In this document: positions 8,267-41,230 of the stretch, piece by piece
Numbering within the stretch: position 1 is the first letter of the stretch
Layout of the letters: the number at the start of each line of letters is the position of its first letter
IMG/VR virus record: IMGVR_UViG_3300047550_003664
Location: 1 to 41,917 of that record
From: a virus
Length of the DNA: 41,917 bases
Strand: one strand, 5' to 3'
Notes under the pieces: model-generated
What the model was told of the DNA's origin: nothing
The model's input: the letters and a program-made list of their open reading frames with translations, nothing else
Databases searched by the model: none
Position numbers and translations under genes: made by a program

Positions 8267-8457
8267 ACAACATGTATGAAGCATTTGGCACATCTACATT
8301 TCCAAAAAAGAAGGAATGTTATTGGCAATTGGTATTGATGCCCACAATTTCAGTTTATACAAGCAAGTGTGATGGACATACAGCGATAAACATGGAATGG
8401 CTGTTCTGGTGTTTCACTATTCTCAAAAGGCCTAAAGATAAAATAATAGCTGTATGA
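8263..8457 (+). CDS. Small hypothetical protein
   Basis: 64 residues, rich in aromatics (INMEWLFWCF) and lacking any known motif. It lies between the two helicases and overlaps each by 4 bases, so it is probably translated with them. A second methionine at 8272 could be the real start. Function unknown. Confidence 0.6.
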   Translation: MNNMYEAFGTSTFPKKKECYWQLVLMPTISVYTSKCDGHTAINMEWLFWCFTILKRPKDKIIAV

Positions 8458-9323
8458 GCTTAAGAGATGAGAAACAACAGCTATTTGCTAAAAAGTGGAT
8501 GGATGATGGTGACAAATTTGGTATTCTCTTATTAGCACCTAGGTTTGGGAAAATAAGGACCACCATCAACATTTTCAACAAACTACAGCCAAAGAGAATA
8601 CTCATTGCCTATCCAGATTTGAAAATAGAGGCTTCTTGGAAGAACGATTTTGAGAAATTTGGATTTGTACATGATGACATCACCTTCACCACTCATTTGT
8701 CGCTAAAAAAGTATGTCAACGAGAAATATGACATGATAGTGATAGATGAAATCCATCTCCTCAGCACCAACCAATTGGACAGTTTAGAAACCCTCATTGC
8801 TACAAATAATGAGGAAAATGTTCTTGGTTTAACAGGAACAATGACTAGAGAGACAGAGGCAGAGATATTTGATGCTACAGGACTGGATGTCGTTGTAAGA
8901 TATCCCATTGAGGCTGCTGTGAGAGATGGGATAGTGGCTGATTACGAAATCATTGTCAAAACTGTACCTCTTGACAACACTAAGCCTTTGAATTTCAAGG
9001 GCAAAATGCGTACAGAGAAGAAGCAATTTGATGCTATTGGATGGGTGATAGAGCAAAAACAGCTTCGTGGAGAGGAAACAATGTTCCTAAGGCTATCCAG
9101 AATGAGGATAATACAGAACAGCATTGCTAAATTGGAATACACCAGAAAGCTCTTGGAACAAATGAAGCATGAGAGAGTGCTGGTATTTTGTGGTGTCACC
9201 AAGATTGCTGATAGTTTAGGTATTCCCTCCTATCATAGTAAGGCTGGTGAGAGAAAGATGTTTGAGGACTTTGCTAACGGAGAAGGTAATCACATGGCTG
9301 TTGTGAAGATTGGTAACACGGGT
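8454..9323 (+). CDS. SF2 helicase, exon 1
   Basis: The first 290 residues of an intron-split superfamily 2 helicase/ATPase. Motif I is APRFGKIRT (28-36; Ile instead of Ser/Thr after GK), motif II is DEIH (98-101), motif III is LTGT (126-129), and motif V begins as GNTG at the exon end. Reading past 9323 gives one Arg codon and then a stop. The reading frame resumes in phase at 10320, where the missing end of motif V and motif VI are encoded. The joined protein has 361 residues. It may act in branch migration, replication restart or transcription of late DNA, as T4 UvsW-like proteins do. Confidence 0.85.
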
Positions 9324-9454
9324 AGATGAAAGTTATGCCCGTATAAAACTCCTCTAATTCGGTGAAGCCTGACCATTAAGTTGAAGGTAATACCGAGCCA
9401 AGCAGAAATAGAAATATTTCAGGCGTGTGTAGAGACTATTCCGAAAGGAAGTAC

Positions 9455-9462
9455 TATATTTG
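9455..9462 (+). promoter_or_regulatory. Possible -7 promoter element inside the intron
   Basis: TATATTTG matches the Bacteroidota -7 consensus TAnnTTTG and lies 41 bases upstream of the endonuclease start. No TTTG/TTGG is found at the expected -33 distance (the bases there are GAGA and part of P7), so this is a weak candidate for separate endonuclease expression. Confidence 0.3.
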
Positions 9463-9502
9463 TAAAAGAATATGGGAAACGGGGAGTGTTATTTGAATTT
9501 AT

Positions 9503-10276
9503 ATGTACAGGATATATTATTTAACATCAGATAAAGATTTTAACATGCCTATGTACGTAGGTATGACTAAGTTATTGTTAAAAGATAGACTTAAAAATCA
9601 TCTTTCACATACTAAGAAACATAGTAAAATCAATAACTGGAAAAAGTCAGTAAATAATGTTAGAATCTGTCTGATTGAAGATGGTATACAAACTTTTGAG
9701 GAATGTAGCAGTGCAGAACTTGGTTGGATAAACTTCTGGAAAAAAATTAATCCAGAATTAAAGAATTCTATTTTTTATAAACTTTCTGACAATCCCTACA
9801 AAAATTCTATTGAGAATATAAGAAAAAACATCTCTGAAGGAGTTAGAAGAAAAAGATGTAAAGATGTAATTGTTTTGGATTTAAATGGAAATTTTGTAGG
9901 TGAGTTTCCCACTATTAAAGAGGCTTCTTTAAATACCAAAATTAAAGAAGAAACAATATCTTTAATATTAAAAAACAAGTCAAAGGCAAGTAAGTTAATA
10001 TTCATATACAAAGATGAATATGTAGAAGGTCTTGACTATAGTCATAAAGTTTATTTTGCAAAAAATAGAAATCCTTGTAAAATCAAACCTGTTGTATCTG
10101 AAAACTGCAGAAATAAGAGAAAAATCAGTTGTGTTGTAAAAAACACTATCACAGGAGAAGTTTTTAATTTTTCTTCTCAACAAAAAGCTTGTGATTATTT
10201 TGGTTTTTCTTCTTCTCTTTACTCAAGAAATAAAAAGTCAGGAAAACTTTATAAAGGTACATATAAATTTGAATAG
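9503..10276 (+). CDS. GIY-YIG homing endonuclease with NUMOD-type DNA-binding repeats
   Basis: 257 residues inside the intron. The GIY-YIG nuclease domain is N-terminal: IYY (4-6), YVG (18-20), Arg29 in KDRLKNHL and Glu72 in AELGWINFW. After a NPYKNS linker come two modules that look like NUMOD1-type helix-turn-helix DNA-binding repeats (VIVLDLNGNFVGEFPTIKEA, ~115-150; NTITGEVFNFSSQQKACDYF, ~215-255). It should cut intronless alleles of the helicase gene near motif V and promote intron spread. Its A+T-rich codon use differs from neighbouring genes, as expected for an invading element. Confidence 0.88.
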   Translation: MYRIYYLTSDKDFNMPMYVGMTKLLLKDRLKNHLSHTKKHSKINNWKKSVNNVRICLIEDGIQTFEECSSAELGWINFWKKINPELKNSIFYKLSDNPYKNSIENIRKNISEGVRRKRCKDVIVLDLNGNFVGEFPTIKEASLNTKIKEETISLILKNKSKASKLIFIYKDEYVEGLDYSHKVYFAKNRNPCKIKPVVSENCRNKRKISCVVKNTITGEVFNFSSQQKACDYFGFSSSLYSRNKKSGKLYKGTYKFE

Positions 10277-10319
10277 CAAAGATATAGTCCGAACCTCAAA
10301 GAAATTTGAGTAACATAAG

Positions 10320-10535
10320 GTAACGTATAAACCACTTAACAAGGTGATCATCAACTATTTCGATAGCAATGGAGAAAATCTTGCACAAAAGATCAACCGA
10401 TGCATGGCAATGGAATATGACAATCCTGACAAGAAGGCAATCATTTATATAATATGCTCTACAGAGGAGGTGGAGAAGAAATGGCTCATGAAGGCCTTGG
10501 AGTTCTTCCAAGCTGACAAAATAAAGTTTGAATAA
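10320..10535 (+). CDS. SF2 helicase, exon 2
   Basis: The last 71 residues of the split helicase. It opens VTYKPLNKVIINYFDSN, completing motif V across the splice junction (GNTG joined to VTY), and carries motif VI as QKINRC (residues 313-318 of the joined protein). Exon 2 has no start of its own that would give a functional domain; a GTG at 10344 is in frame but would miss motif V. The last codons (AAG TTT GAA) overlap the -33 element of the next promoter. Confidence 0.85.
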   Translation, partial: VTYKPLNKVIINYFDSNGENLAQKINRCMAMEYDNPDKKAIIYIICSTEEVEKKWLMKALEFFQADKIKFE

Positions 10536-15097: not shown

Positions 15098-17329
15098 ATG
15101 ATTGTTGAAAAGCAAAACGATGTGGTGATTTTGGAGGAAGGAGTTTCCTCACAAAGCATTGACATGACACTCGACTTAGATTCTGCCAGCATGCTGATGC
15201 AGATGTTAAGTAAAAACCTGTATTCCGATGGCATAGGATCTGCTATTCGTGAAACATGTTCTAACGCCCTAGATAGCCACAGAAGGGCAGGTGTCTCACA
15301 ACAGCCTATTATTGTAAGTCTAAAGCCTAACAATCAAGGCAATTATGAATTCTCTGTTGAGGATTTTGGTCTTGGCTTGGATGGAGATGATGTAGAGAAC
15401 ATCATTAGCAAATATGGCAAGAGTACAAAACGTAATTCTGCTACAGAGCTAGGAATGTTTGGATTGGGATTCAAAGCACCTCTTGCATATTCTTCTACAT
15501 TCTATTTTGTATGTAGGAAAAATGGAATGGAAAGGAAATATTCCATGTATGAGAGTGATGAAATGAACAAAATAGACCTTATACATGAATCTCCCACCAC
15601 TGAAAGAAACGGTGTCAAGGTGGTGATTCCTGTAAAATCTTGGCACATTACAGACTTCAAGAAGAAGATTGTAGAACAGCTTGCATATTTTGAAAACGTG
15701 TTCTTCAATGTAGAAGGAATGAGCAATGATTTCAAGATATTCAGAACAGATGACTATCAGTATAGTGAAATGGTGAATGATGATAGAATGCACATTTGTC
15801 TTGACAATGTCTACTATCCTATTGACTATTCTAAACTAGGAATTAGGTCTATAGATGTTCCTATTGGTTTGAGGTTTAGCTTGAGTGATGGAATTTATCC
15901 TACGCCAAACAGGGAATCCATCCGATATACATCTGAGGCAAAAGTCATCATTGTTGACAAGATTAGGAAAGTGTGCACTCAGCTTGTACAGAGGTTCAAT
16001 GACCATCATTCCACCACTGACAATGTTGAAATGCTGTATGATTTTTACAGGTTTGATTCAAAATACTATTTCATTGGAGACAAGAGGATTGATCTGAAAG
16101 AGCTGTTGGTTCATTCCTCTGTTTCTATTGATGACATGAAATTGAAGAATGCTCATTATTCAGGTTTTGATTACAAATCATTCTTTGAGAGCAGTTTCGC
16201 AATGTTGAATGAAAGTTATGTTGTATCATCAAAATTTGATACCAGAAGGTTTTCTTCCAATGTAAGGCCTTTGTACCTTCCTGATCTTTGGAACAAGAAT
16301 GTTCACATCATCAATAAGGAAAAACTTAGCAATTATGACAAGTCTTACATAAGAAGCAATGTAAAGAATGAGTGTCTGTTTGTTGTTAAAAAACAATCCA
16401 TCAACACTCTTCGTGGAAAGAAAGGGTATTATTTAACACTTAATCTTCACAAGCATCCTAAGAGTGAATGGAGGAATTTGATTATTTGTGCTCAGAAGAT
16501 TGTTGAACATTGTATTAATACTTATATCAAACCTTCGATTGAAGCTCCTCAAGATTTTATTGATGGAATAAAGAAAATGAGGCAGAGAGCACCTTCGTCT
16601 TCTGTTGTCACTGTTAGAAAAAAGAGGATTGATGGAGAAGTGAATTTCAAACTGGGAAATGTTTTGGAAAAAGCTTCTTCCAAAGGTGCTAATTGCAAGT
16701 TCACACCTACATTGATGAAGATTTCTTCTGTAAGAAAGGGTAAAATATTCATTATTTATGGAGGAGAGGAACAAAAGGAGCTTTTGGATGGTCTCTTTCC
16801 TTACATGGACCGTTCTAAAATAAGAATAGCATTGGTGGGTGTTAATGATGAGAAATTGTTGAATGAGGCAAACGTTCATAATTGTATGAATGTTGTTGAT
16901 TTCATGAAAGGAAATAACAAGATTTTTAAAAGGCTAGTGACAGCTCACATCATTTATAATTTTAAGAATAACAATAGTGTTTCAGATGTTTTTAGTAGAC
17001 ATGCAAAGCTTGATGGGTTTTTACCTTTTGGCATGCGTGAAAAAGTGGACCATTTGAATTATTATACAAAAGAGAATTTATTTAACTCTAGTGCAAATGA
17101 AGTGTTTCAAAAAATACTAGATGTTGCCAAAGAGGAGAATCTGTACGATTATTCTATTTATGGAACATTCTTGGAAATAAAGGCATTTCTTGAGAAATAT
17201 GAATGGCTTCCAACTATTTATGATGTTGCATCATGGAGTGATGCAAAAGTGTTAAAGGATGTAATTGTACAGCTTTGCAAGAGAAATCACATACGTTTAG
17301 ACATTTCCTATTATCGTTTGAAACAATGA
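15098..17329 (+). CDS. rIIA-like GHKL ATPase
   Basis: 743 residues. The N-terminal GHKL/Hsp90-type ATPase domain has the N box IRETCSNALDSH (E52, N56), the G1 box EDFGLGLD (89-95) and the G2 box GMFGLGFKA (119-127). The long C-terminal part has no recognised domain. Size, ATPase type and the rIIB-like gene that follows match T4 rIIA, a membrane-associated protein involved in lysis timing and resistance to host exclusion systems. Function in this phage is inferred from this pairing. Confidence 0.75.
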   Translation: MIVEKQNDVVILEEGVSSQSIDMTLDLDSASMLMQMLSKNLYSDGIGSAIRETCSNALDSHRRAGVSQQPIIVSLKPNNQGNYEFSVEDFGLGLDGDDVENIISKYGKSTKRNSATELGMFGLGFKAPLAYSSTFYFVCRKNGMERKYSMYESDEMNKIDLIHESPTTERNGVKVVIPVKSWHITDFKKKIVEQLAYFENVFFNVEGMSNDFKIFRTDDYQYSEMVNDDRMHICLDNVYYPIDYSKLGIRSIDVPIGLRFSLSDGIYPTPNRESIRYTSEAKVIIVDKIRKVCTQLVQRFNDHHSTTDNVEMLYDFYRFDSKYYFIGDKRIDLKELLVHSSVSIDDMKLKNAHYSGFDYKSFFESSFAMLNESYVVSSKFDTRRFSSNVRPLYLPDLWNKNVHIINKEKLSNYDKSYIRSNVKNECLFVVKKQSINTLRGKKGYYLTLNLHKHPKSEWRNLIICAQKIVEHCINTYIKPSIEAPQDFIDGIKKMRQRAPSSSVVTVRKKRIDGEVNFKLGNVLEKASSKGANCKFTPTLMKISSVRKGKIFIIYGGEEQKELLDGLFPYMDRSKIRIALVGVNDEKLLNEANVHNCMNVVDFMKGNNKIFKRLVTAHIIYNFKNNNSVSDVFSRHAKLDGFLPFGMREKVDHLNYYTKENLFNSSANEVFQKILDVAKEENLYDYSIYGTFLEIKAFLEKYEWLPTIYDVASWSDAKVLKDVIVQLCKRNHIRLDISYYRLKQ

Positions 17330-17344
17330 AATCATTCAGAACAA

Positions 17345-17363
17345 AGGGGGTGGAATTCCCCCT
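17345..17363 (+). terminator. Stem-loop terminator between rIIA and rIIB
   Basis: AGGGGG (17345-17350) pairs with CCCCCT (17358-17363) across a TGGAATT loop, followed directly by ATTTTTA. It is a short but GC-rich intrinsic terminator candidate that may lower rIIB expression relative to rIIA. Confidence 0.6.
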
Positions 17364-17387
17364 ATTTTTAAAAGCAAAACAGCAAAT

Positions 17388-18692
17388 ATGTTTAGTTTTA
17401 ATTGGTTCATGAAGAACAAGCCTACAGAAGAAGTTGTGAAAGAGAACGTAGAGGTTTCTAAAAAGCCTTATTCCAAGCTCAAGCTTGTAAATGATGTCAT
17501 CACTGTAGTGTTTGATAATGGTGATGTTTTGGTAAAGGCTAGTGAGAACGTGGATACATATGCTAAAATCAGACAATGTGCATCAGAAGAGGAGATTATG
17601 TCTCTCCTGTCTGATGAAGTTTCTCTTAAAAGGATGGAAGATGAGAAAGTTGATGCTAAGGAGAAAGCTAGTGTTGCTAATGGAATACACCTTCTCAAAA
17701 GCCTCAATAAAGAGTTTGAGTTTATAGGAGACAATATGGTGGTGATGAAGAGTACAGGAAGAACAATTCCTTCTCTTCTTGTAGAAAGGTTTGCCATCAT
17801 TGCCCATCGTCATAATGGAGATGTGGAAAGCATTGTGAATGATGAGGAATACATTGGTCTAAAGAGGTTCTTTCTGTGGTGCTGCCTCAATCCAAGGGCT
17901 GAAGTGGCTGACAGGCTGTATGACTTTCTCACCAAGAATGGCATGAAAATCACCAAGCAGGGCTTCTTTGTTGCTCTGAGGAATGTTGTAAAGGTGGAAA
18001 ATGCTGACACCGCTCTTACAGAGTTTGTAAGCAATGCTTATAATAAGGTGAAAGCTGTATGGAAGAAGAATCCTGTCAACTTCCGTGTAATGGAAATTGA
18101 TGGAGAGTATTCTATTGAGAAAGTGACCAACACCCATTACAAAGGAGCTATTGTTGGCAATCTAGACACTCTTTATTCCACTCTTCCTGAGGAAGAAGGT
18201 AATCGTTATACAGACAATTACTCTAAGACTTTCGACATTCGCATAGGAAAAGCTGTAAGCATGCCTCCTGAGGAATGTAGCTGGTCTACAGCCGACTGCG
18301 CCCATAAAGGCCTTCATTTCGCTGGGCATACAGCTCCTTATGTTCTCTGCGGTGACACCACTGTATTCACTCTTCACAATCCTATGAAAGTGGTAGGCAT
18401 TGGCGAAGAGAAGGGTAGGTGTTATGAATACCTGCCTTTCATGATAACAAACATACAAGAAGCTGATGAGATAATGTCTTCTCGATCATTTGATTTCCTT
18501 CAGCTTGATGAAACTTATGCAATTGACCAGCTTTCACAACTTGAGGAAAAAGCGAAGGAAGGATTCTCAAAAGAGATGAGGAAGTATAGTTTTAACATTC
18601 CTTCAATGTCTTATAACCAAATGGTAAATATCGTTTCATCGCTAGAAGAAATGAAGAATGAAATCAACAAACGAGTTCAAAATCTTGTATAA
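17388..18692 (+). CDS. rIIB-like protein
   Basis: 434 residues. The C-terminal half has CLNPRAEVADRLYDFL, GFFVALRNVVKV, and CAHKGLHFAGH followed by YVLCGDTTVF and NPMKVVGI. These correspond to the conserved T4 rIIB core that has a GLH motif and a paired C..NP..VV segment. The N-terminal ~170 residues are helical and variable. It lies 58 bases behind the rIIA-like gene, preserving the T4 order, and the pair probably acts at the host membrane. The 3' end overlaps the next gene by 35 bases. Confidence 0.7.
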   Translation: MFSFNWFMKNKPTEEVVKENVEVSKKPYSKLKLVNDVITVVFDNGDVLVKASENVDTYAKIRQCASEEEIMSLLSDEVSLKRMEDEKVDAKEKASVANGIHLLKSLNKEFEFIGDNMVVMKSTGRTIPSLLVERFAIIAHRHNGDVESIVNDEEYIGLKRFFLWCCLNPRAEVADRLYDFLTKNGMKITKQGFFVALRNVVKVENADTALTEFVSNAYNKVKAVWKKNPVNFRVMEIDGEYSIEKVTNTHYKGAIVGNLDTLYSTLPEEEGNRYTDNYSKTFDIRIGKAVSMPPEECSWSTADCAHKGLHFAGHTAPYVLCGDTTVFTLHNPMKVVGIGEEKGRCYEYLPFMITNIQEADEIMSSRSFDFLQLDETYAIDQLSQLEEKAKEGFSKEMRKYSFNIPSMSYNQMVNIVSSLEEMKNEINKRVQNLV

Positions 18693-27572: not shown

Positions 27573-27862
27573 TGAAAGAGTTTAAGAAACTTAGAGGGAA
27601 TCGTGTATATCTTAACATTCCTGAATTCAAGGAAAGCCCCATCTATCTCACAGAGGAATTGAAACAGGCATTCATCGAGGAAGAGAAAAAGAGATATACC
27701 AGCTTGGAAGTGTATGCTGTAGGTGATCTGGTGACAGATATTGCAGAAGGTGACAAAGTTATGGTGGATCCTCAAGCTCTTCAGAATGCTTCTGTCATCA
27801 GCATCAGTGATGCTAAGAAAGTGATACTAATATCTCCGTTTGACATCATCCACATTTGGTAA
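27572..27862 (+). CDS. Hypothetical protein, faintly GroES-like
   Basis: 96 residues. The pattern VYAVGDLVTDIAEGDKVMVDP, then SDAKKVILISPFDIIHIW, has the order of a GroES/gp31-type beta-barrel (VGD-V plus a C-terminal strand after a basic loop). A co-chaperonin acting on a capsid protein is possible, but the resemblance is weak. It forms a translation-coupled pair with the previous gene. Confidence 0.4.
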   Translation: MKEFKKLRGNRVYLNIPEFKESPIYLTEELKQAFIEEEKKRYTSLEVYAVGDLVTDIAEGDKVMVDPQALQNASVISISDAKKVILISPFDIIHIW

Positions 27863-27864
27863 TT

Positions 27865-28605
27865 ATGTTACTATCTGCAAAATGTATAACCTATGGAAGA
27901 GTGGAGTTTCTGGAAGAGTCACTCCACTCTTTCCTTATTCAAGAATATGATGGGGAGAAAGAAATGGTGATAGTCAATGACTGTCCATTTCAAAAACTCA
28001 TCTTTGACCATCCCAATGTTAGGATATTCAATCTGAGTGAAACCTTCAATACTCTTGGGGATAAGGAAAACTTTGCTACAGAGCAATGTAGAGGAGAGGT
28101 GATAATGCAATGGGATGATGATGACCTAGCCCTCCCCAATCATCTTAGCAATGTAAAAAAGTGGTTTGTAGAAGGTAGTGATCTTCTCCATTGGCATAGA
28201 GCAATATTCATGAATGCTCCTAACATTTCTGCTATTACAGGAGTGGGTAATTCAGGTATTGTTTACAGCAAAAAGATATGGAGAGAGATGGGTGGCTATC
28301 CTCTTGAGAATGCTGGATATGATATGTCTTTTGTAGTGAAGATAAAGCAAATGAGTAATAACATTGTGTTTGCTGATCCTCCTGATGATGAGGTGAGTTG
28401 GATATATGTATGGGGAGGAAGAGGCTATCATTGTAGTGGTATGGGTACAGACACTCCTGATAGACCTAGTGTGATGGTGAGGCACAGCGAGTATATTGAA
28501 AGTCTTAGAAGAATGAACATGATTCCTGAAGGAGATGTTTATTTGCAACCTCATTGGAAGCATGATTATAATGTTAAACTGAAACAGTTTATTAATGCTG
28601 GTTGA
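27865..28605 (+). CDS. Family 2 glycosyltransferase
   Basis: 246 residues from the ATG at 27865; a TTG at 27856 is rejected. The GT-A fold is shown by CITYGRVEFLEESLHSFL at the start, EMVIVNDCPF and a metal-binding EVIMQWDDDDLALP motif. It would transfer a sugar from a nucleotide donor to a lipid, protein or DNA acceptor. It is the first of four genes (27865-30486) forming a sugar cassette at the end of the + strand block. It overlaps the next gene by 11 bases. Confidence 0.75.
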   Translation: MLLSAKCITYGRVEFLEESLHSFLIQEYDGEKEMVIVNDCPFQKLIFDHPNVRIFNLSETFNTLGDKENFATEQCRGEVIMQWDDDDLALPNHLSNVKKWFVEGSDLLHWHRAIFMNAPNISAITGVGNSGIVYSKKIWREMGGYPLENAGYDMSFVVKIKQMSNNIVFADPPDDEVSWIYVWGGRGYHCSGMGTDTPDRPSVMVRHSEYIESLRRMNMIPEGDVYLQPHWKHDYNVKLKQFINAG

Positions 28606-29161
28606 GTTTATAATCCCCACTTATTACAGACCCCATTTGCTAAAAGCAATGTTAGCAAGCCTTGTTGCCCAAACAGATGGTGATTGGGGAGCTCTTGTGA
28701 TGATTGATAATGACAAGAATGAGGAAATTGAGAATGTGTGCACCATGTTTGAGGATGAGAGAATAAGATGGGCGTACATGGATAAAAGGTATAATGATTG
28801 GGGACATACGCCTAGAGAACAAGGTAAACAAATGTCTCAGGCTGATTACATCATAATGACAGGTGATGATAATTATTACACTCCAAACTTTGTAGAAGAA
28901 CTAAGAAAAGCAACAGTGAATCTTCCAGCTCTTGTGTATTGGGATATGGTGCATTCTCATTATAATTATCAATTTTTTGGATGCCATCTTAACATGGGTC
29001 AGATAGACATGGGAGCTTTTGCCACAAGAAAAGATGTGGCACATGACATATATTTAGGTACACATTATGCTGCTGATGGATTTTTCATTGAAGAATTTAA
29101 GAAGAATCATAGACACAAGGGAGTGGTGAAGATTGACAAGGTTTTGTTTGTACACAATTAA
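28595..29161 (+). CDS. GT-A-type glycosyltransferase
   Basis: 188 residues. VEFIIPTYYRPHLLKAML is the family 2 N-terminal strand-helix, and ADYIIMTGDDNYYTPNFVEE provides the D-D donor-binding motif. It is short, covering mainly the catalytic domain. Overlaps the upstream glycosyltransferase by 11 bases, suggesting coordinated expression and a possibly sequential reaction. Confidence 0.72.
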   Translation: MLVEFIIPTYYRPHLLKAMLASLVAQTDGDWGALVMIDNDKNEEIENVCTMFEDERIRWAYMDKRYNDWGHTPREQGKQMSQADYIIMTGDDNYYTPNFVEELRKATVNLPALVYWDMVHSHYNYQFFGCHLNMGQIDMGAFATRKDVAHDIYLGTHYAADGFFIEEFKKNHRHKGVVKIDKVLFVHN

Positions 29162-29170
29162 TTTAAAAAT

Positions 29171-29833
29171 ATGTTAGTTACAAAAAGAGGAATAACAATT
29201 AATGTTGCTGAAACAAAGCTTAATAAGAATTTCTGGACAGATCATTATAGTTACTGGGAAGAATCTACTTTCGAGTTTTTACAAAAGTATTGGAACAACG
29301 ATAAAACTTTTATTGATATTGGTGCTTGGATTGGTCCTATATCCTTAATAGCAAGTAAGTATTCAAAAGAATGTGTATGTTTTGAACCAGACACATTTGC
29401 TTACGATGAGTTTAAACATAACATAGAACTAAATGGAATTACAAATATACATTTAGAAAAAAAGGCTGTTTCTATTCATCCAACAATAGAAATAGGATGT
29501 GAAGTACTTGGTCAAAGTGGAACAAGAGACTCCTGTAAACAAAATGTAATAACATGCGAATGTATTTCTATATCAGAAATACTTTCTAAATACAATTTGA
29601 ATAAAGAGAATATATCAGTGATTAAGATAGATGTAGAGGGACATGAAACAGAATTGTTACAAGACAGAGTTCTTTGGGACTTGAATCTTCCTATACACAT
29701 TTCCTTTCATCCTGGATGGAAAGAAAACAGAAAAGCTTTCTATGAGAGCGTTAAACCATTCCTTATTCACAAAGGAATCAATGTTTCTAACATAGAAAAT
29801 TATGGAAACTTCTTTGATCTGACAATAGAATGA
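29171..29833 (+). CDS. FkbM-family methyltransferase
   Basis: 220 residues. SAM-binding motif FIDIGAWIGPIS, CFEPD as the acidic strand-2 end, NGITNIHLEKKAVS, and IKIDVEGHETELL are the FkbM signature. FkbM enzymes methylate hydroxyl groups, frequently on sugars. Placed between glycosyltransferases, it likely caps a glycan. Its codons are more A/T-rich than those of its neighbours, hinting at later acquisition. The stop overlaps the next start (ATGA). Confidence 0.8.
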   Translation: MLVTKRGITINVAETKLNKNFWTDHYSYWEESTFEFLQKYWNNDKTFIDIGAWIGPISLIASKYSKECVCFEPDTFAYDEFKHNIELNGITNIHLEKKAVSIHPTIEIGCEVLGQSGTRDSCKQNVITCECISISEILSKYNLNKENISVIKIDVEGHETELLQDRVLWDLNLPIHISFHPGWKENRKAFYESVKPFLIHKGINVSNIENYGNFFDLTIE

Positions 29834-30486
29834 AAATCCCTATTGTTATAAACAACAGAGACTTGTACACATGGCCTGTAGCCATGGTTCACAGGATGAT
29901 GAAATATGATGGTGTAGGAGATATTATTATTGTAGACAATGGTTCTACATATCCTCCTCTCATACATTGGTATGATAGACAAACACTTGTAGAAGTGGTG
30001 AGGTGTGAAAATCTAGGACATGGAGGGGCTTGGGTAAGTGGTGTTGTTGAGAGACTTGGGAGCAAGCATTACGTTGTTACAGACTCTGACATGGGGCTTG
30101 AAGACACTCCTGATGACACTCTTATGGTGTTGATGGAAAAGCTTGAAAAGCATCCATACATCAGGAAAGTGGGACTTGGACTAAATTGGCAAATAGTGAA
30201 ACCTGAAAGCCCTTATTACAACAGACTCAATCTGTATGAAAAAGATAGATGGGAGAAGTCAAAAATAATGGATGATGTATATGTAGATGTGGAAATCGAC
30301 ACTACGTTTGCCATGTACAATGTAGACAGTTATTTCATAGGAGGAGGAAGCTTAACATTTCCTTATGTAGCAAGACACTGTCCTTGGGAGCTTACAAAAG
30401 CTGAATATGAAGCAAATGATGAATTCAAATATTACATAAAAAATGCTTCTCATTCTTCTTCTTATAAAACCCTCTTAGGATTGTAA
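29830..30486 (+). CDS. Putative glycosyltransferase (GT-A fold)
   Basis: 218 residues. IPIVINNRDLYTWPVAMV, DIIIVDNGSTYPP and KHYVVTDSDMGLED give the nucleotide-sugar-binding order with a D-S-D metal motif. VGLGLNWQIVKPES and FAMYNVDSYF follow in the acceptor half. It is the last gene of the + strand block, ending just before the bidirectional terminator. Confidence 0.7.
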   Translation: MKIPIVINNRDLYTWPVAMVHRMMKYDGVGDIIIVDNGSTYPPLIHWYDRQTLVEVVRCENLGHGGAWVSGVVERLGSKHYVVTDSDMGLEDTPDDTLMVLMEKLEKHPYIRKVGLGLNWQIVKPESPYYNRLNLYEKDRWEKSKIMDDVYVDVEIDTTFAMYNVDSYFIGGGSLTFPYVARHCPWELTKAEYEANDEFKYYIKNASHSSSYKTLLGL

Positions 30487-30491
30487 ATAAA

Positions 30492-30517
30492 AAAAGCCCT
30501 CGATCAAGAGGGCTTTT
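30492..30517. terminator. Bidirectional intrinsic terminator between convergent blocks
   Basis: Perfect ten-base-pair stem AAAAGCCCTC / GAGGGCTTTT (30492-30501 with 30508-30517), loop GATCAA. Flanking A and T runs make it work on both strands. The + strand genes end at 30486 and the - strand genes at 30599. The remaining bases to 30598 contain no gene that I can support. Confidence 0.85.
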
Positions 30518-30598
30518 CTTTTAGAAGGCTTCCAAAGAATAGCTGTTCTAGACCAACCATTCACCTAGTGTGCATTGTGAAGAGGCATGTGAAGCCAA

Positions 30599-30736
30599 TC
30601 ATTTAGATAGTCTTTTCTGTTTCATAGGCCACATTTTACTCTTGAGCCTGAGCTTTGTATCAGCCTCTTTCATATAATTGTCCTTTGGCCTAGGATTATT
30701 CACTTTAGGAGCTTTCTTTGGCTTGCCGCTTTTCAT
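30599..30736 (-). CDS. Small Lys-rich protein
   Basis: 45 residues starting MKSGKPKKAPKV, strongly basic (about one third Lys/Arg), with KMWPMKQKRLSK at the end. Last gene of the - strand unit, sharing one base with the stop of the gene before it (TAATG). Function unknown; see the cluster of similar basic proteins upstream. Confidence 0.55.
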   Translation of the reverse strand: MKSGKPKKAPKVNNPRPKDNYMKEADTKLRLKSKMWPMKQKRLSK

Positions 30737-30891
30737 TAGCAACCCATTTTACAGGTCTTCATCTTTCCTTTACCACTAGTGTTCTTACCAATGGTGCGCT
30801 TGTAAGAAGCGAGATTGGTGGAGGTGCTAGTCTTGGAAGGAGCAAGGGTTCCACCCTTTGCCATCTTTTTCATTTTAACAGGCTTTTTCAT
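30736..30891 (-). CDS. Small Lys-rich protein
   Basis: 51 residues, MKKPVKMKKMAKGG at the start and KMKTCKMGC at the end, basic and probably disordered. The Cys near the C-terminus might be structural. One-base overlap with the next gene supports translation of both. Function unknown. Confidence 0.55.
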   Translation of the reverse strand: MKKPVKMKKMAKGGTLAPSKTSTSTNLASYKRTIGKNTSGKGKMKTCKMGC

Positions 30892-30899
30892 TGTATGTA

Positions 30900-31256
30900 T
30901 TATTTAGATTTTTTAACCATCTTCTTGCCATATTTGGCTTTCCCCTTGGCAGCTACAATAATGTCAGCCCTTGTAACACCGGGATTCTTGTCATACCCAG
31001 CCTTTACAGACTTCATTCCAAGCTCACCACCACTCTTCATTTTCTTTTTAGGAGCTGATTTAGGTTTTTCAAACATCTTGTCAAACTCACGATTGTGATA
31101 ATTAGACTTAGACCTAGGGATCATTGTTCCGGGAAACATTTCACTAGGAACAGAATCCTTACGACGATAGTCAGCTTCTGTGAACACCCTCATAGGAGGA
31201 GATTTCTTGGCAGGAGTCTTTGCTCCTTTTTGAGCCTTTTTAATAGTTTTTGCCAT
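30900..31256 (-). CDS. Basic protein with IKKAQ N-terminal motif
   Basis: 118 residues, basic: MAKTIKKAQKGAKTPAKKSP at the start, Lys/Ser-rich end (AKYGKKMVKKSK). The IKKAQ(K/D)G N-terminus is shared with the genes at 31549 and 32228. The middle contains ADYRRKDSVPSEMFPGTMI. Function unknown; a DNA-binding or packaged virion protein is plausible from charge and context. Confidence 0.6.
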   Translation of the reverse strand: MAKTIKKAQKGAKTPAKKSPPMRVFTEADYRRKDSVPSEMFPGTMIPRSKSNYHNREFDKMFEKPKSAPKKKMKSGGELGMKSVKAGYDKNPGVTRADIIVAAKGKAKYGKKMVKKSK

Positions 31257-31274
31257 TATGTATAATTTTAATTA

Positions 31275-31547
31275 TCAACAATTCCATTTCCTCAAAGAGA
31301 GAGCTTTTCTTGTAGGCTTACCATTAGGTTTTTTCATAGGACCAGGCATTCCTGACATTCGAGCACAAAAACTTTTTCTACGTTTAGCAGCTTTACTCCC
31401 AGGTTTCAGCTTGGAAGGTTTAGTGGTGACAGCCATGGAAAGTTTGCTACCGGGATTTTCCCTTCTGTAGGAAGCAATTCCTTTCTTATTGAGACCTCCA
31501 GTGGGACTCTTCCCTTCCTTGCGGGTCCAAGCAGCAGTTTTTGCCAT
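31275..31547 (-). CDS. DUF6321-like basic protein
   Basis: 90 residues: SPTGGLNKKGIASYRRENPG, AVTTKPSKLKPGSKAAKRRK and CARMSGMPGPMKKPNGKPTR, ending LRKWNC. This arrangement is a recurrent phage protein that I recall as DUF6321. The two Cys sites could bind metal. It lies among several unrelated basic small proteins. Function unknown. Confidence 0.72.
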   Translation of the reverse strand: MAKTAAWTRKEGKSPTGGLNKKGIASYRRENPGSKLSMAVTTKPSKLKPGSKAAKRRKSFCARMSGMPGPMKKPNGKPTRKALSLRKWNC

Positions 31548-31548
31548 G

Positions 31549-31878
31549 TTATTTCTTTTTAGCTATTTTACCACCACTCCTTTTTTGCAAAGACTTTAGT
31601 GTAGATGGAACATCTTTCCTAGAAACAGTTTTTGAACTATTTTTAGTCACTTTATTCAAACCAAGTTTATCAGATTCTCCCTCTACAGTTTTCATTTGAT
31701 AACTAGGTTTTCCTTTTGAATACCCAGATGTATCAATAGATTCTGTTTTATATTTATAAGGTTTTGCCAAACCGCCTACAGTGGTTCTTTCTTTTTCTGT
31801 TCTAAACACACCAAGTCCCTTCCTAGTTCCTTTTACAACAGACCTACCATCTTGAGCTTTCTTAATACTCTTTGCCAT
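31549..31878 (-). CDS. Basic protein with IKKAQ N-terminal motif
   Basis: 109 residues. MAKSIKKAQDGRSVVKGTRK at the start repeats the N-terminus of the 30900 protein; the remainder is Ser/Thr/Lys-rich, probably unfolded, ending KRSGGKIAKKK. It is separated by two bases from the next gene. Function unknown. Confidence 0.6.
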   Translation of the reverse strand: MAKSIKKAQDGRSVVKGTRKGLGVFRTEKERTTVGGLAKPYKYKTESIDTSGYSKGKPSYQMKTVEGESDKLGLNKVTKNSSKTVSRKDVPSTLKSLQKRSGGKIAKKK

Positions 31879-31880
31879 AG

Positions 31881-32231
31881 CTATTTCTTTTTGCCTTTGT
31901 ATTTATAATCAGGATTGTCCTTGTGCCATTTCTTTGTGGAGGCCACTCCCTGCTTCACTGTCTTAGCTCTACCAATTCTAGTGAGGTTGATGGTGTCCCA
32001 TTTTCCTTTATCCATTGTGGGATGGTTCACCATGATGTCTCCCTTCTTACTCTTAGGAGTGTCTTTCTTAGCTTTATACACTACGTGGTTCTCACCACCA
32101 GCTTTCACCTTCACCTTTCCACCTTCTTTTAGTGTAGAGTCTTTGAAAGGTCCTTTCTTCTTAATAAGAGGACCATTGGGAACAGGTGTTATTGCTCCTT
32201 TTATGGAAGGTATGGTGTCCTTCTTTTTCAC
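31881..32231 (-). CDS. Conserved basic phage protein
   Basis: 116 residues: an N-terminal Lys/Pro-rich region, then GGENHVVYKAK, GDIMVNHPTMDKGKWDTINL and KTVKQGVASTKKWHKDNPDY. The MVNHPTMDKGKWDTI segment is conserved in small phage proteins of this type. Overlaps the next gene by 4 bases. Function unknown; location suggests a late-expressed virion-associated protein. Confidence 0.62.
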   Translation of the reverse strand: MKKKDTIPSIKGAITPVPNGPLIKKKGPFKDSTLKEGGKVKVKAGGENHVVYKAKKDTPKSKKGDIMVNHPTMDKGKWDTINLTRIGRAKTVKQGVASTKKWHKDNPDYKYKGKKK

Positions 32232-32653
32232 TTCTTCTTGGCCATTTTGCGGAATGTCTTTGCAAGATTGTATCTCTTGCTTCCCGGCTTACATGTAGGA
32301 CCTCCAAACTTAGAGCCTGTGCATACACCTTCAGTGCCTCTACGTTTAATAGAGGCTGTTGCTGATTGTATCCACTTTCCTCCTTTAGCTTTAGTTACAG
32401 TTCCTCCAGTTTTTCTTTTCGGTTTTTCATATGCTTCAGCATACCCTAACCTTTTTTGAGTCATTCCAAATTGAGGATCATATTGAGTTTTACTTTTAGG
32501 TAGACCTTTTTTAATATCACTCACTCCTTTAAAATAACCAGATCTATAGTCAGCACTATCCTTTGAAGTTGGTTTATCTGTCCAACTTAAAAGATTTATA
32601 TTACTATATTTAGGTTGTTTCAAACCTTTTTGAGCTTTTTTAATCGTAGCCAT
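32228..32653 (-). CDS. Basic protein with IKKAQ motif and Cys pair
   Basis: 141 residues. MATIKKAQKGLKQPKYSN at the start carries the third copy of the IKKAQ N-terminal motif. The end, GVCTGSKFGGPTCKPGSKRY followed by NLAKTFRKMAKKK, contains a Cys pair separated by 9 residues. Charge is strongly positive. Function unknown. Confidence 0.6.
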   Translation of the reverse strand: MATIKKAQKGLKQPKYSNINLLSWTDKPTSKDSADYRSGYFKGVSDIKKGLPKSKTQYDPQFGMTQKRLGYAEAYEKPKRKTGGTVTKAKGGKWIQSATASIKRRGTEGVCTGSKFGGPTCKPGSKRYNLAKTFRKMAKKK

Positions 32654-32655
32654 GA

Positions 32656-32817
32656 CTATTTCTTTTTAACCTTTCCACCCTTCTTCATGTTACCAAGAGT
32701 GCGTTCTTGCACCTTTGTCCAAGCACCTTTAGGATCAACCATAGGAGCTTTTGTTTTCTTAGTGGCTACACCACCAGCCTGCATTTTCTTTGCAGATTTT
32801 TTTACATGAGATGACAT
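32656..32817 (-). CDS. Small Lys-rich protein
   Basis: 53 residues from MSSHVKKSAKKMQAGG; the upstream in-frame start at 32889 would overlap the previous gene and is rejected. Basic throughout, with PKGAWTKVQERTLGNMKKGG near the end. Function unknown. Confidence 0.55.
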   Translation of the reverse strand: MSSHVKKSAKKMQAGGVATKKTKAPMVDPKGAWTKVQERTLGNMKKGGKVKKK

Positions 32818-32818
32818 T

Positions 32819-32974
32819 TTATTTCTTTTTACTTTGAGCCTTAATCTTCTTCTCTTGCTTGAGCATTTGAGCAGTGGGTTTTTTCCCACTGCCCTTATTG
32901 GCCCTCAAATTATCCCAAAGACCGCGTTGGGAATAAGAGCCATCAGCTCTCTTAATCATTTCCTTCTTTGCCAT
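32819..32974 (-). CDS. Small basic protein
   Basis: 51 residues: MAKKEMIKRADGSYSQRGLW, then DNLRANKGSGKKPT and QEKKIKAQSKKK. The pattern GLWDNLRANKGSGKKPT..ML recurs in small phage proteins of unknown function. It is separated by one base from the following gene. Confidence 0.6.
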   Translation of the reverse strand: MAKKEMIKRADGSYSQRGLWDNLRANKGSGKKPTAQMLKQEKKIKAQSKKK

Positions 32975-32976
32975 AA

Positions 32977-33237
32977 TTAGGAGAGTTTGCCTTCAGCTTT
33001 GAGCCTACCATAAATAGCAAGGAATGTACCTACAGCAGAGACAGCTTGGCTGATGATGACAGCTACATTGCCTTCTGCAGCTTTGACAGCTTCAGCATAC
33101 GCTTTCAATTGTTCGAAATCAGCATTCGGAGGAAGCTGTACATCAGGCACTTTGAGCACCTCTGTAATAACAAAACCAAGAGCAGCTACAAGAATGCCCC
33201 AAATGGTTTTTGATTGATACCATGCTTTTGTTTCCAT
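32977..33237 (-). CDS. Holin-like membrane protein
   Basis: 86 residues from METKAWYQSK; the longer frame from 33273 is unlikely. The segment SKTIWGILVAALGFVITEVL (about residues 8-27) is the first transmembrane helix, and AVIISQAVSAVGTFLAIYG (about 60-78) is a second hydrophobic helix, followed by a charged end. Size and layout fit a small phage holin or virion membrane protein. The lysin lies on the other strand at 4918, so the pairing is not direct. Confidence 0.55.
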   Translation of the reverse strand: METKAWYQSKTIWGILVAALGFVITEVLKVPDVQLPPNADFEQLKAYAEAVKAAEGNVAVIISQAVSAVGTFLAIYGRLKAEGKLS

Positions 33238-33250
33238 TGTATTGTTTGTT

Positions 33251-33475
33251 TTAATTGTTAGCTTCCTGTTCAACAGCTGTTCCTTCTTCTACAGCTTTTG
33301 CTAGTTGGTTATGGATTATTTCATTTGCTTCAATGGCTAAGAAGATTTTCTGTGCTTCGGGAGAAGAGAGAATGGTTCTAATAGCTGTCATTATAAGCCC
33401 AAATTCCTGACCATTGAATACAAACTGAGCATTTGGTTCCCAAGTGTAAGGCTTGGAAGGGTCAAACTTTGCCAT
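33251..33475 (-). CDS. Small conserved hypothetical protein
   Basis: 74 residues, acidic: YTWEPNAQFVFNGQEFGLIM followed by a helix with LSSPEAQKIFLAIEANEIIH. Resembles small proteins near tail genes in related phages. Function unknown. Confidence 0.6.
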   Translation of the reverse strand: MAKFDPSKPYTWEPNAQFVFNGQEFGLIMTAIRTILSSPEAQKIFLAIEANEIIHNQLAKAVEEGTAVEQEANN

Positions 33476-33508
33476 GTTATTTGGTTTTATTTAATGCGTA
33501 AATGTATA

Positions 33509-33796
33509 TTATTCAATTGAAATATCAAAGACAATTGTTCCTCCACTTGATTTAATACTTTTAGAAAGATCGAGTCTGATGTTCAACATTGTGTGGAATT
33601 TCAGAATCTCTTCCAAAAGCATTTCAGAATATTTGGGAACAGAAGGAACAAGCCTAAAGTGATAGCTGTGTGGATTCTTAACTATCTCCATAATAGCCAT
33701 CTCATCCACTGAGCTGATGATTCCCTCCAAATGTGATAGATAGGCAAGTTCATTATCCACCATCACCTTTGGAAAGAACTTTGTCACTATTTCCAT
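33509..33796 (-). CDS. Hypothetical protein
   Basis: 95 residues, mixed alpha/beta, with a hydrophobic core pattern but no known motif (SYHFRLVPSVPKYSEMLLEE). Located one base after the ferritin-like gene in the same unit. Function unknown. Confidence 0.65.
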   Translation of the reverse strand: MEIVTKFFPKVMVDNELAYLSHLEGIISSVDEMAIMEIVKNPHSYHFRLVPSVPKYSEMLLEEILKFHTMLNIRLDLSKSIKSSGGTIVFDISIE

Positions 33797-33797
33797 C

Positions 33798-34205
33798 TCA
33801 GCTCAGTGTTAGGAGATATTTCGTCTTGCTTGCTTTTCCACTAAGTTCCTGAGCCATGTTTTCTACATCGCAATAGTTGTTCTCACCAGCCCATTCATAC
33901 AATTGGTATGACCAGCTCATAAGCTCTGCCACCACTGTATTGGAAGAAGCTCCATCAACAATAGCCTCAGCTTTATAGGCTTTGGGCCTCTTATTCATGT
34001 ACCCCATAAGCTTCTCCATGACATCATCTTTGAAGTCTTGGACATATTCATACAGCTCTCCAACAGCCTTATGCTCTGCATAGCTGTTTGTTTGCCAATG
34101 AATTAGATGGAGTTGCTCATGAAAATACGTGAGCTTGCTGGCGATGGTTTCCAATGTCATTCCATTGCTCTGCAACATTTTTTCAGGAAACAAGGATTTA
34201 GCCAT
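33798..34205 (-). CDS. Ferritin-like helical protein (DUF5856-like)
   Basis: 135 residues, all-helical. TYFHEQLHLIHWQTNSYAEH and EKLMGYMNKRPKAYK are the conserved blocks of a phage family that I recall as DUF5856; the H-W-Q-T with nearby E/H residues resembles the Dps helix. Metal binding is possible but the full di-iron pattern is not evident. It overlaps the next gene by 8 bases. Function unknown. Confidence 0.65.
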   Translation of the reverse strand: MAKSLFPEKMLQSNGMTLETIASKLTYFHEQLHLIHWQTNSYAEHKAVGELYEYVQDFKDDVMEKLMGYMNKRPKAYKAEAIVDGASSNTVVAELMSWSYQLYEWAGENNYCDVENMAQELSGKASKTKYLLTLS

Positions 34206-34620
34206 TCTTTGTTTGTTTTGTAATAGCGTTAAGATCTACGCGGAAATATCCAATCTTCTCATCGAAGTGGACATGCTGAGGATACATCTCAAGAGCTTCT
34301 TGAGCCATTACACCCTTTGTAGGATTGCCATCAATGCCAATGTATTTGGCAAGATCATTCCACTCCCATGTGTATTCCTTCAGTTCACCAATCATGTTAC
34401 CTGTAGCAACAATGTTTGTTTTCAGACGGAAGTCAGAAACAGGAATAGCTGTAGTGGTGGTGGTTGTAGGAAAATCAGGGTCACAGCATTCGTATGCCGA
34501 GATTTGTTTCCAATTACCCACCTTGGGCATGCTCCTCCTAAGGATGAGACTGCTAGGTACAACTCTCCCACTGCCATCAAAACGAACATAGGCCTTGAGG
34601 TCTTTTCTAGAATTTGCCAT
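34198..34620 (-). CDS. Peptidase S74-like intramolecular chaperone domain protein
   Basis: 140 residues. After a short beta part and a Thr linker (FPTTTTTTAIP), it carries SDFRLKTNIVATGNMIG, a YTWEWND strand and GVMAQEALEMYP, ending GYFRVDLNAI. These are the features of S74/endosialidase-type chaperone domains that trimerise and usually self-cleave C-terminal to phage fibres. The Ser at the SD start is present. It is freestanding here, so it may act in trans on, or be a small relative of, the fibre proteins encoded nearby. Confidence 0.6.
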   Translation of the reverse strand: MANSRKDLKAYVRFDGSGRVVPSSLILRRSMPKVGNWKQISAYECCDPDFPTTTTTTAIPVSDFRLKTNIVATGNMIGELKEYTWEWNDLAKYIGIDGNPTKGVMAQEALEMYPQHVHFDEKIGYFRVDLNAITKQTKNG

Positions 34621-34622
34621 TT

Positions 34623-35645
34623 TTACGAGTATTTAATGTTATATTTTTGTTTCAATTCCAATATCTTTTGTAGATAGTAGTTATTGCACAATCTTTTGTT
34701 GCTTTCATTTTCCAATACCTCATCTACAAGGCGAGGGTCATCAAAAGGAAGCATCCCTGCGTGGTATTTACCTTTGTAGAACATAGGAATTGCCCCATGC
34801 ATTTCCCCTGTCACACCAGCATTGTGCATAATACCTGTCTTCTCAAGCTTGTCTATATGATCTGTGGACCATGAGAATTCCATCTCAGGCACCACCCTTG
34901 TCTCAAGACCCCTTAGCCAGAGATTCCAAAGCACTGCCCACATATCTGCGCACCATCTTTGGAAACCCTTGTTCTCATTCTCAAAGAAGTCTCTATTAAT
35001 ACCTGCCAAATAGGTGTTGATGTGGAGACAATCACTAATCACCTTGTCCCAAAACTTGTCATCAATATTCTTTAGCAGATATTGGGCTCCTCCTGAATGT
35101 AGATTGTTGGCTTCGCAAATCTGTCTATTGATTCCAACAGGAGCTGTTAGCTCTGTTAGAACATCGAATGTTTTGTATTTCTCAAGCATGTGAGGAAGTA
35201 CATCCCTCTCCTTGCTGTCAAAATAGCTTGCATTTATATAGCTGTTTGTATCACTTAGATAGCAAACATCATCATCTATGTATTTGTCGATATTGAATTG
35301 CGGGGTGAATATCACATCACAATCGCAATAAAACACTGCACATTCCTTCATTTCAGGATGGAGCCTGAAGTATTTCATAAGAATGTACGGTCTGAGGATG
35401 GGAGTATATATGCCCAGAAGTTTGCTTATTCCATCCTCATCCTTGAGGTAGAAGAACTCAGCCTCAGGATAAATCTCATCTAGCTGTTTCCAATCCTCAT
35501 TTGGTTCTCTGAAGCTTGGTGTGAAGACAAGGACAATGGCTTTATCTGAATGTCCTATTTGCCTCAAACTCTCCAGCCAAGCATGTGTCTGCCAGAAATA
35601 ATAAACATCATCAGGCTGAGCACATATAAATTTTAATTGTCTCAT
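34623..35645 (-). CDS. GT-A-like glycosyltransferase
   Basis: 340 residues from MRQLKFICAQPDD; the upstream start at 35681 would extend across the previous gene's end and is less likely. FICAQPDDVYYFWQTHAWLE is the N-terminal strand and CAVFYCDCDVIFTPQF has the D-x-D motif. WSTDHIDKLEK and GIMHNAGVTGE recall the His-containing end of GT8/GT-A enzymes. It starts the second sugar cassette, with the GT4 gene following upstream. It may modify virion or host glycans. Confidence 0.6.
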   Translation of the reverse strand: MRQLKFICAQPDDVYYFWQTHAWLESLRQIGHSDKAIVLVFTPSFREPNEDWKQLDEIYPEAEFFYLKDEDGISKLLGIYTPILRPYILMKYFRLHPEMKECAVFYCDCDVIFTPQFNIDKYIDDDVCYLSDTNSYINASYFDSKERDVLPHMLEKYKTFDVLTELTAPVGINRQICEANNLHSGGAQYLLKNIDDKFWDKVISDCLHINTYLAGINRDFFENENKGFQRWCADMWAVLWNLWLRGLETRVVPEMEFSWSTDHIDKLEKTGIMHNAGVTGEMHGAIPMFYKGKYHAGMLPFDDPRLVDEVLENESNKRLCNNYYLQKILELKQKYNIKYS

Positions 35646-35662
35646 GTAGTTGGTTTTTAGTT

Positions 35663-36850
35663 TTATACTAGTCTGTGCCATCCTTTCTTATTCTCATCAA
35701 CAGCTGATTCATATACATTGTATAAATCATCAAACCATTTTTGGAATTCCAATTTCACATTGTCCATCAGAAATCTTTCTCCATACTCCCTTACAAACTT
35801 ATGTTCAACATCTTTTGCTGAGATGGCAGCATCAACAAAGTCTTGAAGCGTGTTGCACCTAAATCCCACCTTCCCATTAAGATGATCAGGAATAGTGCCC
35901 GGAAATACAGCAAAGTTTGTAGTTATAGGAGGGGTGCCGTGAAGCATAGATTCTATATGTGTTCCTGCAAAACACTCCAAATATTCTGTAGGGGTAAACG
36001 TGGCTATGGCATTTCCCATCAACCTTTTTCTATCTTTCACTCCAGCATATCCAAAATATTCCCAAGTGCCAGGAGGAAGTTGGAAGTCAGGGTCTGTGTT
36101 AGGTACTAAATAACCTCTTGAGTCAACATGTGCTCCTTGTCCAACAATAATTAGTTTCTTATTTAGATGATTACAAGCAAGTGCTGCTGTAATGATGCCT
36201 TTTCTTTTTATCATTCTTCCTATGAAAAGGTAATAGTCTTCCTTTTCCTCTTGATACTCTACATCCTCAGGATCAAAATAATTAGGTATCACCCTATCAT
36301 AATAACTCCCGTTGATGGATTCATATGGATGTTCACTTCCATATGTAAAATTCTGTATGTAGCTGCTTTCAAAAGCTCTAAATCTACCTTTAATCGACCC
36401 TCTATACCCTATTCCCGGCTCACATGTAAGAAACAATTGTACAGCATCTGCTATAGGAGAATGGTAGACACCCTGTGTACACAATAGAAAATCATCATCT
36501 TTCTTGTTTTTGTTGATGTAATCTATTGTCTTATTGTAGAATTTGTGCGTTGTAGGTGTTCTTGAACTATTAAAGTCATGTCTGAAATCAGTATTTGTCC
36601 AATCATATCCAAGTTCATATCTGTTGTCGCCATCTCCCCATTCACGTTGTATATCTTTCAATGTGTGGGTTTGGATGAACTCTGTACAAGGAACATCACT
36701 ACCTTCAGAGCCATAATAGAACACTTCGTGTCCCATGCTTAGGAGCATTCTACTAAGCTTATGATTCTTTTGTGTGAATGCACAGCTCATGTACTCCCTG
36801 CTGCAGGGCAGGTGTACCAGCCCTAGCATGTGAAATCTGTATTTTTTCAT
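35663..36850 (-). CDS. Family 4 glycosyltransferase (GT-B fold)
   Basis: 395 residues from MKKYRFHMLGLVHLPCS; a longer start at 36952 would overlap the methyltransferase. DYYLFIGRMIKRKGI (about 215-230) is the start of the C-terminal nucleotide-sugar domain, LIIVGQGAHVDS the following strand and LECFAGTHIESMLHGTPP the E-x7-E motif of GT4. It transfers a hexose from NDP-sugar with retention of configuration. The acceptor cannot be read from sequence. Neighbouring genes are a methyltransferase and another glycosyltransferase. Confidence 0.78.
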   Translation of the reverse strand: MKKYRFHMLGLVHLPCSREYMSCAFTQKNHKLSRMLLSMGHEVFYYGSEGSDVPCTEFIQTHTLKDIQREWGDGDNRYELGYDWTNTDFRHDFNSSRTPTTHKFYNKTIDYINKNKKDDDFLLCTQGVYHSPIADAVQLFLTCEPGIGYRGSIKGRFRAFESSYIQNFTYGSEHPYESINGSYYDRVIPNYFDPEDVEYQEEKEDYYLFIGRMIKRKGIITAALACNHLNKKLIIVGQGAHVDSRGYLVPNTDPDFQLPPGTWEYFGYAGVKDRKRLMGNAIATFTPTEYLECFAGTHIESMLHGTPPITTNFAVFPGTIPDHLNGKVGFRCNTLQDFVDAAISAKDVEHKFVREYGERFLMDNVKLEFQKWFDDLYNVYESAVDENKKGWHRLV

Positions 36851-36858
36851 ACGTTGGT

Positions 36859-38524: not shown

Positions 38525-38528
<4 letters not shown>
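37824..38528 (-). CDS. LamG/concanavalin-type lectin domain protein
   Basis: 234 residues. A full LamG_3 (laminin G-like jelly roll) is visible: LVLHLDAAQLRSYPGSGTTW, GGYFSFNGSTQYA, YSMCAWIRPAS, TWYYVVITRDS and KCYVNGIQ, then FNGGIAIVQGYTKELSSTEV. Such domains bind carbohydrates and occur at the receptor-binding tips of phage fibres. The start overlaps the collagen-like fibre gene stop by 4 bases (ATGA), so both are made together and may form one tip. Confidence 0.8.

Positions 38529-41230
<2,702 letters not shown>

Follow-up and report, generated by a model that had tools for sequence, protein, structure and literature searches.

A group I intron with a P8-borne GIY-YIG endonuclease in a phage helicase gene, and a free-standing relative of the enzyme beside an intronless copy of the gene

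The helicase gene of a viral record of 41,917 bases (the whole of the stretch analysed, hereafter the window) is interrupted by a group I intron of subgroup IA2, and the intron encodes within its P8 element a GIY-YIG endonuclease. A relative of this enzyme in another phage contig (L022) is free-standing and adjoins that contig's copy of the helicase gene, which has no intron. Comparison of the sequences makes it very probable that the intron is mobile and that its endonuclease directs homing at the helicase site, with the free-standing relative probably homing likewise. On balance we favor a reading in which a single lineage of GIY-YIG enzyme with one helicase target would follow two lifestyles in related phages, either shielded by an intron or free-standing and shielded by a recoded target carried along with the enzyme gene. 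The conversion tract of the free-standing form would begin at the intron site, and the pair would thus capture a stage in how a mobile intron is put together (or taken apart). The intron itself belongs to a known kind; it is the pairing of L022 with the intron that is unusually informative. How introns and endonucleases come to be united is a standing question, for which the usual examples are few and come from other enzyme families.

The interrupted helicase gene

Exon 1 (8454–9323, plus strand; 290 codons, recognized as an open reading frame, by homology and by a Pfam ResIII match of 33.4 bits) ends ...AVVKIGNTG with U9323 as its last nucleotide, and an in-frame reading continued beyond KIGNTG meets R and then a stop just inside the intron. 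Exon 2 (10320–10535, plus strand) resumes at 10320 with VTYKPLNKV... and has 71 codons and a stop, its translation being VTYKPLNKVIIN...KFE, as recognized by homology to uninterrupted helicases. As classified from its sequence, the interrupted gene encodes a helicase of SF2/SNF2 type. The site is uninterrupted in 101 of 103 homologous helicase loci (a set that includes some redundant contigs), 94 of the 101 reading AVVKIGNTGVTYKPL; the sole exceptions, L024 and L025, both carry the same intron there. This comparison had been proposed in a preliminary description made from the window's letters, which placed both splice sites so as to join GNTG to VTY without loss of frame, and the uninterrupted homologues match that junction. 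Its further claim that the insertion target is among the most conserved parts of the helicase also holds, the 40 residues past the site being the best-conserved stretch of the protein (mean identity 0.96–0.97), a stretch that we take to cover helicase motif V and to run towards motif VI. Comparison with homologues shows that both exons are still conserved despite the intron. Helicase annotation in such phages can overlook a split gene of this sort, and Rfam at its gathering threshold misses the window intron.

Intron RNA structure

The intron (9324–10319, plus strand, 996 nt, IA2-like) lies exactly where the preliminary description had put it, as seen from split matches to the Rfam group I model (RF00028), from the intron at the same site in L024 and L025, and from its helices. 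The exon strand of P1, ACGGGU (9318–9323), makes six of six pairs with GCCCGU (9337–9342) and places a U.G pair at the 5′ splice site (U9323). Directly ahead of GCCCGU lies the P10 strand GUUAU (9332–9336), which pairs five of five with GUAAC at the beginning of exon 2 (10320–10324), the two strands thus forming a single unbroken internal guide (9332–9342). P3 comprises 7 bp between ACUCCUC (9348–9354) and GGGGAGU (9481–9487), and it is followed from its 5′ strand by P4/P5 (9358–9397; UUCGGU/ACCGAG and GCCU/AGGU) and by the hairpin P6a (9405–9420; GAAAU/AUUUC), which has 5 bp in the window and is longer and different in L024 and L025. The P7 strands, GACUAU (9434–9439) and AUAGUC (10284–10289), are far apart; the 5′ strand and its pairing are invariant in the three introns, and the 3′ strand falls within the 3′ match to RF00028. 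Between P7 and P3 are P7.1 (UUCC/GGAA) and P7.2 (AUAUU/AAUAU), spanning 9439–9473 and kept with divergent stems in L024 and L025; this placement marks subgroup IA, and in all three introns it agrees with an IA2-like type. No P2 was seen in the fold of the window intron. P9 (10295–10310) has 6 bp and a GAAA loop, and the intron terminates in G10319.

The most extended element is P8, in which a 5′ strand of 21 nt (9488–9508) pairs 21 of 21 with 10257–10277. It is the longest inverted repeat inside the window intron, and its duplex, at -24.8 kcal/mol, was equalled by none of 1000 dinucleotide-preserving shuffles.

P1, P10, P3, P4, P5, P6a, P7, P7.1, P7.2, P8 and P9 all form in the window, L024 and L025, so the preliminary claim that P1 with its U-G pair, P3, P7, P9 with a GAAA loop and P10 could be drawn is borne out in each. 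Support for the catalytic core (P3, P4, P6, P7, P8 and P9) comes from the three divergent introns together, with compensatory changes in P3 (U-A to C-G in both L024 and L025), P4 (G-C to A-U in L024) and P9 (two changes, A-U to G-C and C-G to U-A, across L024 and L025). For P10 in L024, the exon-2 strand is AUAAC, which turns a G.U into an A-U pair, and there the V of exon 2 becomes I. A check against the Rfam model had also been suggested: in a narrow search both halves matched (5′ half 28.2 bits, E 7e-5; 3′ half 22.8 bits, E 0.0028), each below the gathering score of 50 bits because the reading frame divides the intron core. With the whole window as query, at the gathering threshold and at E <= 1, Rfam gave no match, the intron surfacing only in the narrow search.

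The intron-encoded endonuclease

The reading frame within the intron (9503–10276, plus strand, 257 aa) has Pfam matches above cut-off to GIY-YIG (29.0 bits, cut-off 22.6), in agreement with the endonuclease assignment made earlier, and to NUMOD1 (30.9 bits). Residues Y6, Y18, R29, H33 and E72 are invariant in four endonuclease relatives. Substitution patterns indicate that the enzyme is under purifying selection, with dN/dS below 1 against its relatives and, between L024 and L025, dN of 0.18 vs dS of 0.79 (dN/dS ~0.22). The NUMOD-like repeats mentioned in the preliminary description reduce, by Pfam, to one significant NUMOD1 in the window protein; a second module shows in the predicted fold and is recognized in the relatives from L022 and L025. 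That predicted structure is poor (mean pLDDT 59) save for two beta-beta-alpha-alpha modules near residues 122–156 and 210–246, and its top structural match in the PDB, I-HmuI, is not significant (E 0.08). Searches by sequence gave no PDB match and no PHROG family, and bacterial and archaeal genomes yielded no relative. The GIY-YIG genes at other loci (L028, L106 and L119) were set aside, being just 35–39% alike over the catalytic domain.

The frame had been described as sitting in the P8 loop; the location in P8 stands, while confinement to the loop does not, as both ends reach into the stem, the 5′ strand holding the start codon (9503–9505) and the 3′ strand the final codons and the TAG stop. 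With both codons inside the stem, translation of the endonuclease from the folded precursor should therefore be hindered, the 21-bp duplex burying the start codon. Control of T4 endonucleases by RNA structure has been reviewed (PMC2988022), and a restriction of this sort would be in line with it.

The same intron in other phage contigs

Scans with the endonuclease found the same intron at the identical helicase position in L024 (to which L031 is near-identical) and L025. Intron core DNA is 72–88% identical among the window, L024 and L025. Identity of the endonuclease to that of the window is 60% for L024 and 54% for L025, and L024 and L025 are 72% identical to each other in the endonuclease and 58% in the helicase. 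Such identities suggest horizontal spread of the intron among the three carriers, which is not claimed here: L024 joins L025 in the helicase tree (support 97), and intron mobility among the carriers is not shown by the tree because a single clade of window, L024 and L025, and with it single inheritance, is not rejected (p-AU 0.39).

Relatives of this intron type that lack an ORF support the group I assignment. Two of them lie within a few hundred bases of each other in a phage terminase gene in L032 (3740–4550, minus strand); they pass the gathering score of RF00028 (59.6 and 56.4 bits), and the first aligns with the core of the window intron.

A free-standing relative beside an intronless helicase gene

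In L022, which belongs to a 115-kb contig, the genes run in the same order as in the window (DnaB, helicase, AAA ATPase, etc.), and the helicase gene is complete and intronless. Directly after it is a free-standing endonuclease gene with a product of 257 aa, 52% identical to that of the window, whose ATG overlaps the helicase stop codon. The arrangement is known from this single metagenome contig. The L022 helicase lies inside a clade of phages that are intronless and endonuclease-less (support 99), with protein identity up to 88%, and trees that place it with the window helicase are rejected (p 9e-6); the endonuclease therefore moved between helicase lineages at some time.

The direction of the change between the two states is a matter on which the evidence is divided. 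One reading, to be taken seriously without being our first choice, has the free-standing gene derived by escape from the intron, and not reflecting an endonuclease that entered an intron afterwards: four sequences without an outgroup cannot set a direction, and the intron form is present in three lineages and the free-standing form in one. Against it, no intron remnant was found around the L022 gene, nor do its ends have a P8-like pairing (436 of 1000 shuffles are as good), and reviews prefer the entry of free-standing endonucleases into introns (PMC3984707).

Close neighbors without the endonuclease allow the boundary of a divergent segment to be mapped. In the last 150 bp upstream of the intron site, L022 DNA is 95–98% identical to that of L101, L109, L114 and L119, vs 60–63% in the first 60 bp past the site and 66–69% from the site to the stop; for the more distant L122 the corresponding values are 87, 60 and 66%. 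Identity to the neighbors returns in the ATPase gene downstream of the endonuclease. L022 is set apart from all five neighbors at no position in the final 150 bp of exon 1 and at 50 positions in the 210 bp of exon 2, i.e. 0 per 100 bp before the site vs 23.8 after it, with the five neighbors themselves having 3–7 private positions each in exon 2. The maximum-likelihood breakpoint is at +2 from the intron site (2-lnL interval -7 to +7). Of helicase residues that are otherwise invariant, L022 has changed 7 of 41 in exon 2 and 1 of 94 in exon 1 (p 0.001). Its GC3 also falls close to the insertion site (p 0.03). No excess of changed invariant residues in exon 2 was found in the intron-bearing alleles, in which the site is already broken up by the intron.

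Recoding from the insertion point onward is the trace to be expected if the free-standing enzyme homes at the intron's own site. Ordinary recombination bringing in the segment and the endonuclease, or relaxed selection, with the breakpoint agreeing by chance, seems an improbable source of the same pattern. Phage genomes are mosaic, the arrangement comes from one contig, no donor was found for the exon-2 segment, and roughly 1–2% of random placements along the gene would also put the breakpoint within 7 bp of the site, all of which it would accommodate; it is opposed by a breakpoint placed within 7 bp of the insertion site, by the L022 enzyme being a 52% relative of one encoded at that very site, and by a segment that alters otherwise invariant residues and has shifted GC3.

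Proposed splicing and homing, and the two states

In the mechanism that we favor, the helicase transcript would fold and the intron would excise itself by two transesterifications, the U.G pair of P1 marking the 5′ site and P10 aligning the 3′ exon; splicing, we infer, would restore GNTG/VTY in the helicase mRNA. It is most doubtful that the insert is instead a group I intron that has decayed or become inert, or that an inserted endonuclease gene has split the helicase into two parts translated separately from an unspliced message. An in-frame stop does lie just past exon 1, exon 2 has an internal GTG start, and T4-like phages offer the precedent of split genes with free-standing endonucleases (PMC2988022); yet the three divergent copies all retain intact catalytic-core helices, P1/P10 and the terminal G, with compensatory changes preserving them, and conservation persists in both exons.

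The P8-borne GIY-YIG/NUMOD enzyme would then cut the helicase gene of co-infecting phages that lack the intron, at the insertion site or close to it, and repair of the break would copy the intron into the cut allele. For the family as a whole the target would be the helicase gene at or near GGT/GTAACG. With the intron-borne form, the intron itself would destroy the target; the free-standing form in L022 would cut the same site, and the recoded 3′ part of the helicase gene may travel along with it and so protect its own genome. The idea of 'preadapted' endonucleases and collaborative homing has been reviewed for HNH and other enzymes (PMC3984707, PMC10448857), and L022 has the related free-standing enzyme beside the same gene without an intron, which would make it the GIY-YIG equivalent of the collaborative homing known from T7-like phages and cyanophages. 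Here both states of one endonuclease family are found at one gene, and endonuclease-less neighbors fix the conversion boundary to within a few bases of the site; this opens the 'preadapted endonuclease' model to direct test, for which two small proteins and one short DNA target would be enough.

Comparison with known systems

T4 td with I-TevI likewise combines a group IA2 intron of a phage and a GIY-YIG endonuclease. The td reading frame is located in P6 and in another gene, whereas the present one is in P8, and the window enzyme has NUMOD1 modules where I-TevI has a zinc finger/HTH arrangement. Closer in organization are the DNA polymerase introns of T7-like phages with I-TslI, to which gene 5.3 of phage T3 is reportedly a related free-standing gene (work of Bonocora and Shub, 2009, cited in PMC10448857). 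In both systems an intron-borne enzyme has a free-standing homolog adjoining a copy of the same gene that lacks the intron, and the two enzymes share the intron insertion site as target (presumptively so for L022). They differ in enzyme and gene, HNH and DNA polymerase there, GIY-YIG with NUMOD1 and an SF2/SNF2-type helicase here, and in that cleavage is reported to have been shown for I-TslI/gene 5.3, while for the window and L022 the recoding breakpoint points to it.

A further parallel is F-CphI and the cyanophage psbA intron (Zeng et al. 2009, cited in PMC3984707 and PMC3428280), where a free-standing endonuclease adjoining the gene is reportedly aimed at the intron insertion site, as we suppose for L022. 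The psbA gene neighboring F-CphI has the intron and the enzyme is of another family, whereas the neighbor of the L022 enzyme is intronless.

Phage context and additional features

In crAss-like phages, too, group I introns interrupt conserved replication genes (Yutin et al. 2021, PMC7886860), and the DnaB-SF2 helicase-AAA ATPase-primase block of the window resembles theirs. Distant matches of the window helicase are in Crassvirales genera and Bacteroides phages. From the replication block (PMC7886860) and these matches, the phage is probably crAss-like.

Several other genes deserve mention. An extra reading frame directly upstream of the L022 helicase gene (1259–1936) resembles an HNH/AP2-type homing endonuclease and has no Pfam match; the L022 helicase gene is accordingly flanked on both sides by homing-type genes, the other being the free-standing GIY-YIG gene. 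Two divergent phages, L024 (4134–4811) and L106 (4414–5058), have another, different GIY-YIG gene, also free-standing, after the ATPase gene beside the helicase, which makes the neighborhood look like a hot spot for homing genes.

Elsewhere in the window, rIIA-like and rIIB-like genes are adjacent (15098–18692, by PHROG matches, that of the rIIA N-terminus being very clear), and a 901-aa protein encoded at 38525–41230 on the minus strand consists mostly of collagen-like KGDTG repeats and is probably a tail fiber. Several glycosyltransferase-like and methyltransferase-like genes occupy both strands at 27856–37452, around a switch of direction at ~30.5–30.9 kb.
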